Part shown: piece after piece, positions 59,259-64,000 of the stretch
How positions within the stretch are numbered: the first letter of the stretch is position 1
How the letters are laid out: each line of letters starts with the position of its first letter
Source of the DNA: Streptomyces camelliae
Lineage (GTDB): Bacteria > Actinomycetota > Actinomycetes > Streptomycetales > Streptomycetaceae
Length of the DNA stretch: 64,000 bases
Direction: 5' to 3'
Assembly: GCF_027625935.1 (NCBI RefSeq)
Contig: NZ_CP115300.1
Location: 8,184,001-8,248,000, forward strand
Notes under the pieces: model-generated
What the model was told of the DNA's origin: nothing
The model's database searches: none
Seen by the model: only the letters and a program-made list of their open reading frames with translations
Translations under genes and position numbers: made by a program

Positions 59259-60161
59259 TCATCCGGCCTCGGCGAGGATCTCGGCGATGACATGCCGGGA
59301 GTTCTCCGCCAGCGCCGGATTGGTGGCCCAGTAGTACGGCAGCTGGATCAGCGAGATCGACAGGGCCCAGCCGCGGCCGCGCGCCCACTGGGCGTCGTCG
59401 GCGCCGACAGCCTCGCGGAAGGCGTCCCGGGCGCTCGCCGGCAGCAGGTTCCAGGCGACGATCAGATCCACGGCCGGATCGCCGACGCCGGCGCAGCCGA
59501 AGTCGATCACGGCGGTCAGCCGGCCGCCGTCGACCAGCACATTGCCGGGAGAGAGGTCTCCGTGGGCCCACACGGCGGGCCCGGTGTGGTCCGGGGCGTC
59601 GAGGGCCCGCTCCCACAGGGCGGTGACCGCGTCGGTGTCGATACGTCCGCCCAGTTCGGAGATGGCCGTGCGGGTCGGCTCGTCCCGTTCCCGGAGCGGA
59701 CCGGCCCGGTAGCCGGGCGGTGCGTCCCGCGGGTCGACACGGCGCAGCGCGCGGACGAACGCCCCGAGATCCGCGGCGAGTCGGCCGGGTCCCCGGATGG
59801 CCGTAGGCACCGGATTGTGTCCCTCCAGCCACCGGTAGACGGACCACGGCCAGGGGAACTCCCCGTCAGGTTCCCCGATCCCGAGCGGCTCGGGCACGGC
59901 CACCGGAAGGTGCGGCCCGAGCCGGGGCAGCCAGTGCTGCTCGTGCAGCACGTCCGGTACGGCGCCGGGCCGCCGGGGCAGCCGTACCAGCAGATCGGCG
60001 CCGAGCCGGAACATGGCGTTCTCGGTGCCGGAGGACACGAGGCGCCGTACCGGCAGGCCGGCCCAGTGCGGGAACCGGCGGGCGACCAGCCGGCCGACCA
60101 GCGGGGCGTCGAGGGGAACCTCGTCCGCGTGCATACGCGGCGGTGGGGTGAAGGCGTTCAT
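59259..60161 (-). CDS. Aminoglycoside-phosphotransferase-family kinase
   Basis: A 300-residue small-molecule kinase. N-lobe: GTENAMFRLGADLLVRLPR. Catalytic loop WAHGDLSPGNVLVDGGRLTAVIDFGCAGVGDPAVDL contains the HGDLSPGN and DFG equivalents. The family includes resistance enzymes and macrolide 2'-phosphotransferase-like proteins, but the substrate cannot be read. It lies in the same direction as the 2-MIB operon, 69 bp after it; a link to that pathway is not indicated. Confidence 0.83.
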   Translation of the reverse strand: MNAFTPPPRMHADEVPLDAPLVGRLVARRFPHWAGLPVRRLVSSGTENAMFRLGADLLVRLPRRPGAVPDVLHEQHWLPRLGPHLPVAVPEPLGIGEPDGEFPWPWSVYRWLEGHNPVPTAIRGPGRLAADLGAFVRALRRVDPRDAPPGYRAGPLRERDEPTRTAISELGGRIDTDAVTALWERALDAPDHTGPAVWAHGDLSPGNVLVDGGRLTAVIDFGCAGVGDPAVDLIVAWNLLPASARDAFREAVGADDAQWARGRGWALSISLIQLPYYWATNPALAENSRHVIAEILAEAG

Positions 60162-60230: not shown

Positions 60231-61106
60231 CTAGATACGGTCCGCCACGATCAGCAGATACTGGAAGCTGCCGTTGCGGTAGGCGTCCAGGAACGCGTCC
60301 TCGATGCCCGTCACCAGATGGTCGGCCTCCTTGCGCAGCTCCCAGTACGGGATCGTCGCGTCGGTCAGGTCCTCGACATGGACCGGCACCAGCCGGTTCT
60401 TGGCCATCGCGCGGAAGTACTCCGACCTCGGGTGGATGTCGCAGATGTAGTGCGCGTTGATCAGGGACACCTCGCGCGAGGCCCGGCCGTAGGTGTCGTT
60501 GTAGCAGCCGGTGATCGTCACATAGCGGCCGCCGCGGCGCAGCAGCCGGGCGTGCTCGGCGAACAGCAGGTCCAGCTCGACGTACATCGTGGACTCGTTG
60601 TTCCACGAGGCCGCGTACGCCCCCGACTCGAAGCCGGTGTCCAGCATGTTGCGGTGGTGGTAGCGCACCTTGTCGCCGACGCCCCGCTTGCGGGCCATCT
60701 CGTTGGCGAAGTCGCACTGCTTGGCGGAGATCGTGACCCCGTCGGCGTGGCAGCCGTGGCGCAGGTTCGCCACGATGCTGCCGCCGCCCCGGCCGCAGCC
60801 GGCGTCGAAGACCCGGTCGTCCGGGGTGAGCGGGCCGAGGTGCGAGGCCAGTACCTCGGCCTGGGCGTGCTCCAGGCGGTGCAGCTCGCCGGTGATCCGC
60901 TCCTTGCGCAGCTCGGGGTCGGGTTCGTCGAGCACCGACCGGTCGGCCTCACCGATGCCGTAGTGATGGTGGTACAGATCGTCGATCTTGCCGAGTTCGA
61001 GGTTGACCGGGTTCTCCTCGGCGTTCCAGTAGTCCGCGACCCGGTTCTGGTAGATGGACTGGGTCGGGACCGGAACCACGTGGGGTCGGGCGGGGGCGGT
61101 GGTCAA
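60231..61106 (-). CDS. Geranyl diphosphate 2-C-methyltransferase
   Basis: A 291-residue SAM-dependent methyltransferase that converts geranyl diphosphate to 2-methyl-GPP, the first step to 2-methylisoborneol. The SAM motif VFDAGCGRGGGSIV is at about residues 98-111; NEEWNN-type and NLLDTGF-like motifs are present as RNMLDTGFESGAYAASWNNESTMYV. The sequence matches GPPMT of S. coelicolor throughout. A TTG start at 61106 follows GAAGGAG. It is the third gene of the encapsulin-synthase-GPPMT operon, 67 bp after the synthase. Confidence 0.93.
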   Translation of the reverse strand: MTTAPARPHVVPVPTQSIYQNRVADYWNAEENPVNLELGKIDDLYHHHYGIGEADRSVLDEPDPELRKERITGELHRLEHAQAEVLASHLGPLTPDDRVFDAGCGRGGGSIVANLRHGCHADGVTISAKQCDFANEMARKRGVGDKVRYHHRNMLDTGFESGAYAASWNNESTMYVELDLLFAEHARLLRRGGRYVTITGCYNDTYGRASREVSLINAHYICDIHPRSEYFRAMAKNRLVPVHVEDLTDATIPYWELRKEADHLVTGIEDAFLDAYRNGSFQYLLIVADRI

Positions 61107-61173
61107 CGATGACTCCTTCGGTACGGATGTGACGGTGTTGCGGAGAGGCTGAAGGCACCCGTGGCCGGGCGCA

Positions 61174-62226
61174 TCACCAGTAGTCGGGCAGGTGGTAGCG
61201 GTTGCTGTTGGTGGCGTGCCACTCGTGGTTGCCGGAGACCCAGGCGGCCAGGCCCTCGGCGTAGCGCGCGATCAGGGGCGAGGTGGCGGACAGGGTGGCC
61301 GACTCCTCCTCGAAGGCCTCCATGACCTGGTTGTGGATCTCGACGGACTTCAGATAGGCCGCCTTCAGCCCGCATCGGTCGTTGGCGGCGACCACCTGCG
61401 GCAGATTGAGGTGGTCCGGATCGCTCGCCAGCTCCTTGGTGAAGGAGTACAGGTCGTTCACGATGGTGGTGGCGTTGCAGGCCAGGGCGGTGATCCGCTG
61501 GATCTCCGGGCTGGCGTAGAGCTGCTCGGGCAGTTCGTAGCCGTCCACGGCGTCGACCAGCGACAGACAGGGGCGGAAGTTGTTGAACTGCCGCATGACC
61601 AGGTACTCCCAGATCCGGGGCGTGTACCGGGTCTCCATCCAGGCGGCCTCGCCGAGATAGCCCAGGTGCAGCCGGGCCATGTCGTGCACGAACCGGTCGG
61701 TCTGGCTGGGCGTGGCGAAGGTGGCGTAGTCCGCGAGGGCGTGGTGGTACGAGCGCAACGCGGGGTCGGCCTGGAGGCCCTCGCGCCACTCGGCCTCCAG
61801 CTCCGGGACGCCGTGGAAGGGGTCGAGCGCCGACTGGGCGATGATCAGCGGGCCGCCGAGGCCGCGCCGCGATCCGCCCCGGCCCTCGTCCTCCTCGCAG
61901 TAGCAGGAGTCCACGATGTTCTCGGCGAGCAGCAGCTTGCCCGCGGCGGTGAGCCGGTCCAGGTCGAGGCCGCCCGGGTGCTGCAGGACGACGGCCCGGC
62001 CGCACTGGAAGTCCGAGAAGTCGCCCGTCCAGGACTCGGGGAACAGATCCAGCTCCCGGGCCCAGGCCTCCAGCCGGCGGTCGATCTCGGCGGCCTTCTC
62101 CGGGTCGGCGGGCACGGCCGGCCGGTGGCGCAGGCCGGGGATCACACCGGTGCGCCGGGCCGGGCGCAGGGCCTGGGCGATGTTCGGCGGGCCGGGCAGT
62201 GTGTAGGCGGTGGTGGGTGTGCTCAT
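61174..62226 (-). CDS. 2-methylisoborneol synthase (short form)
   Basis: A 350-residue class I terpene cyclase that converts 2-methyl-GPP to 2-methylisoborneol. The NSE metal motif is intact (NDLYSFTKE, Asn257/Ser261/Glu265), as are MRQFNNFRP and the terminal NHEWHATNSNRYHLPDYW. The first acidic motif reads VDSCYCEEDE (Asp106, Ser107), with Ser where related enzymes have a second Asp. The N-terminal extension before the cyclase core is only about 40-60 residues, shorter than the long disordered region of enzymes such as the ~440-residue S. coelicolor form. GGAG seven bases before ATG 62226 fixes the start, 17 bp after the shell gene. Confidence 0.9.
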   Translation of the reverse strand: MSTPTTAYTLPGPPNIAQALRPARRTGVIPGLRHRPAVPADPEKAAEIDRRLEAWARELDLFPESWTGDFSDFQCGRAVVLQHPGGLDLDRLTAAGKLLLAENIVDSCYCEEDEGRGGSRRGLGGPLIIAQSALDPFHGVPELEAEWREGLQADPALRSYHHALADYATFATPSQTDRFVHDMARLHLGYLGEAAWMETRYTPRIWEYLVMRQFNNFRPCLSLVDAVDGYELPEQLYASPEIQRITALACNATTIVNDLYSFTKELASDPDHLNLPQVVAANDRCGLKAAYLKSVEIHNQVMEAFEEESATLSATSPLIARYAEGLAAWVSGNHEWHATNSNRYHLPDYW

Positions 62227-62243
62227 GGCGTGCTCCAGGCCCC

Positions 62244-63677
62244 TCAGTCGGCGGTCCGGCCGAGCTGGACGTTCTCCAGGATCCCGGCCGCGTCGGGCAC
62301 GAGGATCGCCATCGAGTAGTAGGCGGTGACCAGGTAGTTGATGACGGCCTGCTCGTTGATGCCCATGAAGCGGACGTTCAGGCCCGGCTGGAACTCCTCC
62401 GGGATGCCGGTCTGGTACAGGCCGATGACGCCCTGGTCGGCCTCGCCGGTGCGCAGCGCGATGATGCTCGTGGTGTGGTCGTCGCTGATCGGGATCTTGC
62501 TGCACGGGTAGATCGGCACCCCGCGCCAGGCCGGCACCTCGTGCCCGTCGACGCTCGCGGTGCCGGGCACCAGACCGCGCCGGTTGCACTGGCGGAAGAA
62601 GGCCGCGATCGCCTTCGGGTGGGCGAGGAACACCTTGGTCTTGCGCCGCATGGACAGCAGCTCGTCCATGTCGTCCGGGCAGGGCGGGCCGGTGAAGGTG
62701 CTGATCCGCTGGCCGTAGTCGACGTTGTGCAGCAGCCCGAACTCGCGGTTGTTGACCAGCTCCCACTCCTGGCGCTCGCGGATCTCCTCCACGGTCAGGC
62801 GCAGCTGCTGCTGCGTCTGGTCCATGGGGTGGTTGTAGAGATCGGCGATGCGGGTGTGCACCCGCAGCACGGTCTGGGTGAGGGACAACTCGTATTCGCG
62901 CGGGGCGAGTTCGTAGTCCACGAAGCCGCCCTGCAGGGTCGGCTCGCCGGTGTGGCCGGCCTGCACCGGCACCTCGGCCTCGCCCTTGCGGTTCATGGGC
63001 CTGCGCTGCCGCTCGACGTACGCCTGGAGGTGCGCGGCGAGGGACGGCGCCCGGTCGGTGACCTCCCGGACGACGTTCCAGGGCAGGGCGAGGACCACGC
63101 CCGGGGTGTCGGCCCGCACCGAGGACAGCCACAGCGGGTCGGACTGGCCGACCGCCTCGTCGCCCATCTGGTCGCCCGCGGTGACGACCCCGGTGATCTC
63201 CTCGTCGCCGTACTTGCCGTTGGTGAAGCGGGTGAAACGGCCGTGGACGACGAGGTACGCCTCGGTCACGGGCTGGCCCGCCTCGAACAGCACCTGCCCG
63301 GCGCGCACCTCGCGGGGCTGGAAGCGTCCGGCGATCTCCTGCAGGACCTCGCCGTCGGGGTAGCCACGCAGGATCGGCAGCTCGGTCAGGGTCTCCGGGA
63401 TCACCCGGATGTCGTCGGCGCCGTTGTGCTCGAAGTGCACCCGGCCGCGTCCGGTGCGCAGCTGGAGCCGGCGGTTGACCCGGTAGGTGCCGCCCTTGAC
63501 GTCCACCCACGGCAGGGTCTTCAGCAGCCATCGGGAGGTGATGGCCTGCATCTGCGGTTCGGACTTGGTGGTGGTGGTGAGCTGGCGTGCCGCCCGGGTG
63601 CTCAGGCTGGTGAGCTGTCCGTCCGGGTCGGGGACGGGTTCATCGATGACGGAACCGGTGGCGTCCGGTGTGGACAC
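62244..63677 (-). CDS. eshA: Family 2B encapsulin shell protein (EshA-like), with inserted cNMP-binding domain
   Basis: A 477-residue protein easily mistaken for a CRP-type regulator. A short N-terminal arm and E-loop region ([19 protein letters not shown]) precede a cyclic-nucleotide-binding-like insert (about residues 95-225: [31 protein letters not shown]). The rest has the HK97-type phage-capsid fold pattern of EshA ([73 protein letters not shown]). There is no helix-turn-helix. Family 2B shells in Streptomyces enclose 2-MIB synthase, encoded next here. GTG 63677 follows GGAGGGAAT. Confidence 0.88.
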
Positions 63678-64000
63678 ATTCCCTCCAGCGGGGCGCAACG
63701 GGGGTGACGGGATTGGTCGGTGGTGCTCCGGGTGGAGCTGCGCACGGATCAGCCAAACAGGCCGGATGATCACCGGGTAAGGCGTGAAAGGGGCGGTTGA
63801 GCGCGCGGGTTGTGCAAACTCGCCGTTCGCGTCAAACAGTCGGCGCGCGGCTGTGTGCACGCTTCCGGTCGCCTCCGCGCAGAGGTTTCTTGGCCGCCCT
63901 TCACCCGTCCGGGCGAACTGATCGTGCCCGGAACATTACTCTCCGCGACCTTCCGGGCGGGCGGCTCCGGCCCCGGCCGCTCGGCGCGCGGGCCGACGGG
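63678..64000. promoter_or_regulatory. Upstream region of the encapsulin/2-MIB operon
   Basis: 323 bp with no credible gene; it should contain the operon promoter. A TTGACG on the minus strand near 63835 is a possible -35. No operator could be assigned. Confidence 0.3.

Follow-up and report, generated by a model that had tools for sequence, protein, structure and literature searches.

A family 2B encapsulin operon, most likely for 2-methylisoborneol, with a short-tailed terpene cyclase in Streptomyces camelliae

Introduction

Andreas and Giessen reportedly placed the 2-methylisoborneol (2-MIB) synthase (2-MIBS) of Streptomyces griseus inside a shell. Here we describe three adjacent genes for a shell protein, a terpene cyclase and a methyltransferase within a 64,000-nucleotide stretch of Streptomyces camelliae DNA (contig NZ_CP115300.1, positions 8,184,001 to 8,248,000; hereafter the window). 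Based on gene content, we read them as an operon that would make a methylated C11 monoterpene, most likely 2-MIB, and whose cyclase would be held in a family 2B encapsulin shell, and we assign this reading a probability of roughly 0.7.

The eshA-mibA-mibB genes of Streptomyces venezuelae are reported to form a single operon that is a direct target of BldC and is activated by it, and EshA is reported to be dispensable for 2-MIB (PMC6428758). Operons of family 2B that combine 2-MIBS-like cyclases with methyltransferases have been described, and most of these 2-MIBS-like cargos carry a mostly disordered N-terminal region of 100–120 amino acids (aa) with the motif GPTGLGT (PMC8346489). Short 2-MIB synthases also exist, such as the 329-aa enzyme of Longispora albida, and when the tail of the S. 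coelicolor enzyme was removed, the remaining catalytic domain yielded 238% of the product of the full-length form (PMC10520479). The family 2B shell of S. lydicus is a two-component system of self-assembling Enc2, with the motif RRRK, and Enc1, with TVWK; the family 2B insert is reported not to bind cyclic nucleotides (PMC12407261).

Because eshA-mibA-mibB is already in print (PMC6428758), the basic finding is not new; the window operon is of an ordinary kind, and its relatives are already annotated. Its moderate interest stems from the odd tail of the cyclase and from repeated loss of the shell gene among relatives.

Gene content of the operon

The list of open reading frames (ORFs) and the window sequence show three minus-strand genes exactly where an earlier, sequence-only reading of this DNA had placed them:

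62244..63677, minus strand: family 2B encapsulin shell protein (EshA type), 477 aa, GTG start behind GGAGGG
61174..62226, minus strand: 2-MIB-synthase-like class I terpene cyclase of a short-tail clade, 350 aa
60231..61106, minus strand: geranyl diphosphate (GPP) 2-C-methyltransferase, 291 aa, TTG start behind AAGGAG

The gap from the encapsulin gene to the cyclase gene is 17 nucleotides (nt), as that reading had stated, and the next gap is 67 nt. A longer encapsulin ORF could begin from a GTG at 63860; at the 63677 start, GGAGGGAAT-GTG is conserved across the aligned relatives. In this upstream alignment the row of the window's own locus (L013, which holds the operon) shows a wrong stretch, owing to a misset gene start. 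The spacing is operon-like and agrees with the S. venezuelae operon, which has the same order and kinds of genes (EshA, 2-MIB synthase, 2-methyl-GPP methyltransferase); BldC activation was demonstrated there, the single transcription unit proposed earlier for the window genes is a prediction, and co-regulation is something reported for other strains (PMC6428758).

The shell protein scores 712.9 bits against the NCBIfam model NF041163 (family 2B encapsulin shell, equivalog; cut-off 400), and its 352.5 bits on the family 2A model fall under the cut-off of 380. Both hallmarks of family 2B are present, an HK97-type SrpI-like domain and an insert resembling a cyclic nucleotide monophosphate (cNMP)-binding domain, the latter absent in family 2A:

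62259..63011, minus strand: SrpI-like / HK97-type part of the shell protein (residues 223–473; PF19307, 442 bits, E 4.9e-133)
63054..63314, minus strand: cNMP-binding-type insert of the shell protein (residues 122–208; PF00027, 52.3 bits)

Residues 23–473 align with the solved chain 9bhu_A (573 bits), and 9bje and 9bix match as well; we take all three to be family 2B shells, 9bix presumably being a shell chain of the S. lydicus two-component system. The capsid part also aligns with 6x8m, 'Protein SrpI', a family 2A encapsulin structure (PMC8346489). The TVWK motif printed in PMC12407261 suggests that 9bje is the Enc1 chain. Although the window shell is homologous over its full length to 9bje and 9bix, the S. 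lydicus system has two shell proteins and the window operon a single shell gene (PMC12407261). In the alignments to the solved chains, the diagnostic motif 1 region of the window shell reads MRRK, which is nearer to RRRK of Enc2 than to TVWK of Enc1 and thus fits a single-shell system.

The presence of a cNMP-binding domain, together with solved relatives that carry names such as 'Crp/Fnr family transcriptional regulator', might suggest that the first gene encodes a CRP/FNR-type regulator of the operon. The Fnr model, however, reaches just 35.3 of the 228 bits it requires, over residues 112–215, which is roughly the insert, and Pfam at E 0.001 reports no DNA-binding family, helix-turn-helix included. 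With a 442-bit capsid domain and 451 residues matched to solved shell-type chains, the regulator identity is already refuted at the sequence level, and we give it practically no credence. The sequence-only reading had likewise set aside a CRP regulator, having seen no DNA-binding domain and the EshA/HK97 capsid layout with a cNMP insert, and PF19307, PF00027, NF041163 and the solved relatives all agree with it. Its naming of the third gene also holds, as the methyltransferase scores 463.9 bits against NF041943 (GPP 2-C-methyltransferase, equivalog; cut-off 400); solved relatives are 4f84 (363.5 bits) and 3vc1 (359.3 bits).

The cyclase and its short N-terminal tail

The cyclase contains PF19086 (Pfam) and scores 422.1 bits against NF041167 (family 2 encapsulin cargo terpene cyclase, an 'exception' model; cut-off 400), with a match that begins only at profile position 43. 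It thus combines the cyclase domain of a cargo cyclase with a gene adjoining the shell gene, and many of its listed relatives are already annotated with the encapsulin cargo name. Its best solved relative is 4zq8 (642 bits), listed just as 'Isoprenoid Synthase', and the 2-MIB synthase 3v1v scores 373 bits. Identity to five S. coelicolor-type enzymes is 50–53%, and the catalytic part aligns with that type without gaps around NDLYSFTKE and MRQFNNFRPC. The tree of 168 rows (quick method, midpoint root; short-protein rows L133 and L147 and six duplicates left out) places the enzyme in a clade of 110 rows on a single branch with support 99; the sister group consists of three rows (L124, L203, L204) that are 66–67% identical to the window's enzyme. 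The name 2-MIB synthase, given earlier from the sequence, is only partly supported, in view of the separate clade and the higher score to 4zq8 than to 3v1v. At 61888–61914 the window encodes VDSCYCEED, an altered acidic motif: the second Asp of DDCYC is S or N in 95 of the 110 clade rows and Asp in 7, the motif being unmatched in 8. DDCYC is read in 27 of 32 S. coelicolor-type rows.

About 28 residues precede the PGL anchor of the window cyclase, in which the N-terminal region of 100–120 aa with GPTGLGT was not found; this region is stated for 'most' cargos and is not strictly defining. The statement in the sequence-only reading that such shells are published as enclosing 2-MIB synthase does not transfer automatically to a cyclase that lacks this tail. 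The operon resembles published family 2B terpene cyclase encapsulins in its shell with a cNMP-type insert, adjoining cyclase gene and C-methyltransferase, but differs in that published cargos mostly have the long GPTGLGT tail and this clade has a short PGPP tail (PMC8346489). The short L. albida 2MIBS is likewise a homologue without the long tail (PMC10520479). The conserved part of the short tail is as follows:

62164..62199, minus strand: LPGPPNIAQALR, conserved stretch and candidate divergent shell-docking motif (cyclase residues 10–21; DNA match in G000)

Among the matches listed, PGPP is found in 119 of 120 relatives and GPTG in none of the 120; for the S. coelicolor-type enzyme, 98 of 120 listed relatives have GPTG. 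The pattern GP[TSA]G[LIPMV]G appears in no short-clade locus row. Outside the clade, 51 of 55 rows have the slightly wider GP[TSANM]G.G (three further rows with incomplete proteins were left out), and the four misses are two near variants (L162, L172) and two distant enzymes without a nearby shell or methyltransferase (L173, L174). Within the clade, PGPP is invariant in all 74 shell-bearing rows with the anchor; two anchorless rows were left out, both with PGPP visible. Across these 74 rows, L precedes PGPP in 64, A follows in 64, and two later arginines occur in 66 and 70, while no residue exceeds 36 of 74 in any of the five columns ahead of that L. In the wider set, PGPP is found in 92 of the 96 loci with a shell gene and in 13 of the 14 without one. 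The sister lineage (L124, L203, L204) reads WLPGGP[TAS]G[IL]GT[AS]AARALL beside its own shell gene, and in two long-tailed members (P0073, P0079) a second PGPP is present.

Mimicry of the shell N-arm by the cargo motif (SLGTAAARNL versus GLGTSAAR) is weak, and we do not claim it. The 41 pairs outside the clade gave a median z of 1.84, with at most 1 of 100 shuffles scoring as high in 9 of 41; within the clade mimicry is absent (median z -0.49, 1 of 92).

Loss of the shell gene among relatives

Of 81 short-clade loci (L013 and the best 80 of 176 hits), 76 have the shell gene immediately ahead of the cyclase gene. EshA is reported to be dispensable for 2-MIB (PMC6428758), and yet the shell gene adjoins the cyclase this consistently. 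After removal of six duplicates, the clade comprises 96 shell-bearing and 14 shell-less loci, a partly selected set whose proportions are not a frequency. In these 14 of 110 loci the shell gene is gone, and the cyclase, the methyltransferase and a promoter-like block remain, which is a new finding here. The methyltransferase is downstream of the cyclase in 94 of the 96 shell-bearing and all 14 shell-less loci. The block in the window is:

63749..63793, minus strand: conserved promoter-like block CCCCTTTCACGCCTTACC...CTGTTTGGCT upstream of the shell gene (conserved in aligned relatives; best weight-matrix hit on the operon strand of L013)

This block also reads CCCCTTTCRCGCC-TACC ... CTGTTTGGCT; it is kept after loss of the shell gene and is perhaps a promoter or a regulator site. 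To train its weight matrix, 52 of the 96 shell-bearing loci and no shell-less ones were used, picked by a pattern written after seeing the alignment, and the operon strand alone was scanned. In the six shell-bearing loci displayed, the block lies 1568–1744 nt ahead of the cyclase match. In all 14 shell-less loci the distance is 95–433 nt and the block is each time the top hit of the scanned strand, although L091 (6.0), L188 (8.7) and L185 (10.8) score low.

By coordinates, 13 of 80 genomes (80 of 107 candidates) have no shell gene beside the cyclase. Ten of these are among the 17 genomes of genus g7 and three among the 63 outside it; one of these 63 (G303) has just a cyclase of the sister lineage. 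Each of the 80 genomes contains one or more family 2 shell matches at some position. Over all groups of the tree, 15 changes of shell label are needed, at least 8 of them forced by well-supported branches, with a shell-less label that takes in the contig-edge rows L059 and L175. The shell-less rows of the clade stand in at least three places: L176, the neighborhood of L177/L083/L091, and the g7 neighborhood.

Remnants of the lost gene persist in some of these loci. L091 retains them at the protein level (residues 22–37 and 436–477), and at the DNA level they are clearest in L180 (start and end), L188 (end) and L054 (start) and weaker in L182 and L185; the DNA-level comparison found no convincing scar in L176, L177 or L083. 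DNA-level scars were scored, L059 not included, as the best over many references, with a control of just 20 shuffles compared to the best-scoring reference, so small excesses mean little, and 5' matches to reference L013 (in L090, L176, L187 and L188) represent the promoter and not the gene because of the wrong L013 start.

In one further locus, L196 (G370:C11:311800-318900), the shell matches fall in two pieces (residues 16–175 and 178–477) in different frames. The break lies inside the insert, and either decay or a sequencing error is possible.

Proposed pathway and alternative readings

We propose that the methyltransferase converts GPP into 2-methyl-GPP, which the cyclase would turn into a volatile C11 product, most likely 2-MIB with its musty scent. 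By analogy with shells described in other strains, the shell protein would form an icosahedral family 2B encapsulin with the cyclase inside. Docking, if any, would occur via the short N-terminal tail, in which LPGPPxxA followed by two arginines would replace the long GPTGLGT tail; we base this proposal on the conservation of PGPP in an otherwise variable tail, on its second copy in two long-tailed members and on the shell gene adjoining the cyclase. The shell would be an add-on that the pathway does not require, as relatives that lost the shell gene yet kept the promoter-like block, cyclase and methyltransferase presumably still make the product.

Several observations weigh against this proposal. 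We know of no product assigned to this cyclase clade, in most of which the acidic motif is altered to S or N. PGPP is missing in the shell-bearing loci L193, L194 and L212 (the fourth miss, L195, is a mis-called start), and its retention in 13 of 14 shell-less loci indicates that the shell cannot be the sole reason for its presence; a structural role is possible. The position of PGPP and the sister lineage hint at descent from GPTGLGT, but alignment statistics do not support this, 14 of 109 rows beating 95% of shuffles. Nor is it supported that PGPP decays once the shell is lost, given 92 of 96 shell-bearing versus 13 of 14 shell-less loci; the sole shell-less miss is the scar locus L091 (PGPH). 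The spacing from the motif to the catalytic part is shortened in shell-less loci, yet L191, a shell-bearing locus from the same genus, shows this too.

Within the same operon and shell, the cyclase might instead yield another product of 2-methyl-GPP, such as 2-methylenebornane or a mixture. Its separate clade, its modest identity to S. coelicolor-type enzymes and its VDSCYCEED motif are consistent with this, and 2-methylenebornane synthase shares the substrate (PMC10881772). On the other side stand the gapless catalytic part and a survey that counts three groups of Streptomyces enzymes, of which this clade may be one, as 2-MIB synthases (PMC6604706). We regard a different product as unlikely, though a serious contender, and 2-MIB as the likely product judging from sequence. 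It is also conceivable that the clade's cyclase is never loaded and works free in the cytoplasm, with a shell that is empty or holds other cargo and a PGPP motif that belongs to the enzyme's own fold. The absent GPTGLGT tail, the retention of PGPP after shell loss and the repeated losses themselves point in this direction. Against it, 76 of 81 loci have the shell gene immediately ahead of the cyclase gene, and under our start rule the two genes overlap by 4 nt in 33 of 96 shell-bearing loci; furthermore, GPxGxG likewise survives in shell-less loci of other groups (L125, L148, L153 and others), so retention cannot tell the possible uses of a motif apart. Permanent exclusion from the shell appears rather improbable to us.

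Starting from the encapsulated operon as the preferred reading, we tentatively suggest, with more doubt than confidence, that the clade swapped the GPTGLGT docking signal for a minimal LPGPPxxA that fits its own shell and is now becoming shell-independent, the shell gene having been cut out several times, with start and end scars in some loci and with promoter, cyclase and methyltransferase intact. If this is true, strains with and without the shell would be ready-made natural tests of its purpose. The minimal tail, the close relatives that lack the shell gene behind the same promoter-like block and a second, long-tailed shell–cyclase pair in the same genome allow direct tests of the docking signal as well as of what the shell is good for. 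We do not claim that the PGPP-type tail is unpublished, as our literature search covered encapsulins and 2-MIB, not the motif.

Other encapsulin loci and neighboring genes

Two further family 2 shells are encoded in the S. camelliae genome. A second operon (L011:5349-11297; C1:6305000-6320000) contains a shell gene, a 676-aa cyclase, a methyltransferase that scores 535 bits against the GPP methyltransferase model, and a last frame that we take to be oxygenase-like. This cyclase has five GPTG copies in a long tail and is just 38–39% identical to that of the window. The third family 2 shell gene (SrpI-like; L012:6142-9781) lies near a polyprenyl transferase that NCBIfam names an encapsulin cargo (469 bits, cut-off 450).

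Scanning the genome DNA for GP[TS]GLGT gave six hits, against three for the reversed control: the second cyclase, four instances of GYDGP(T/S)GLGTP in unrelated open frames, and one at the end of a frame of 232 residues. For the PGPP pattern, genome and control yielded two hits each, those in the genome being the window's cyclase and an unlikely frame. Neither pattern scan revealed a new cargo.

Downstream of the operon, 69 nt after the methyltransferase gene and on the same strand, lies a gene for an APH-type phosphotransferase (59259–60161), a possible further member of the operon.

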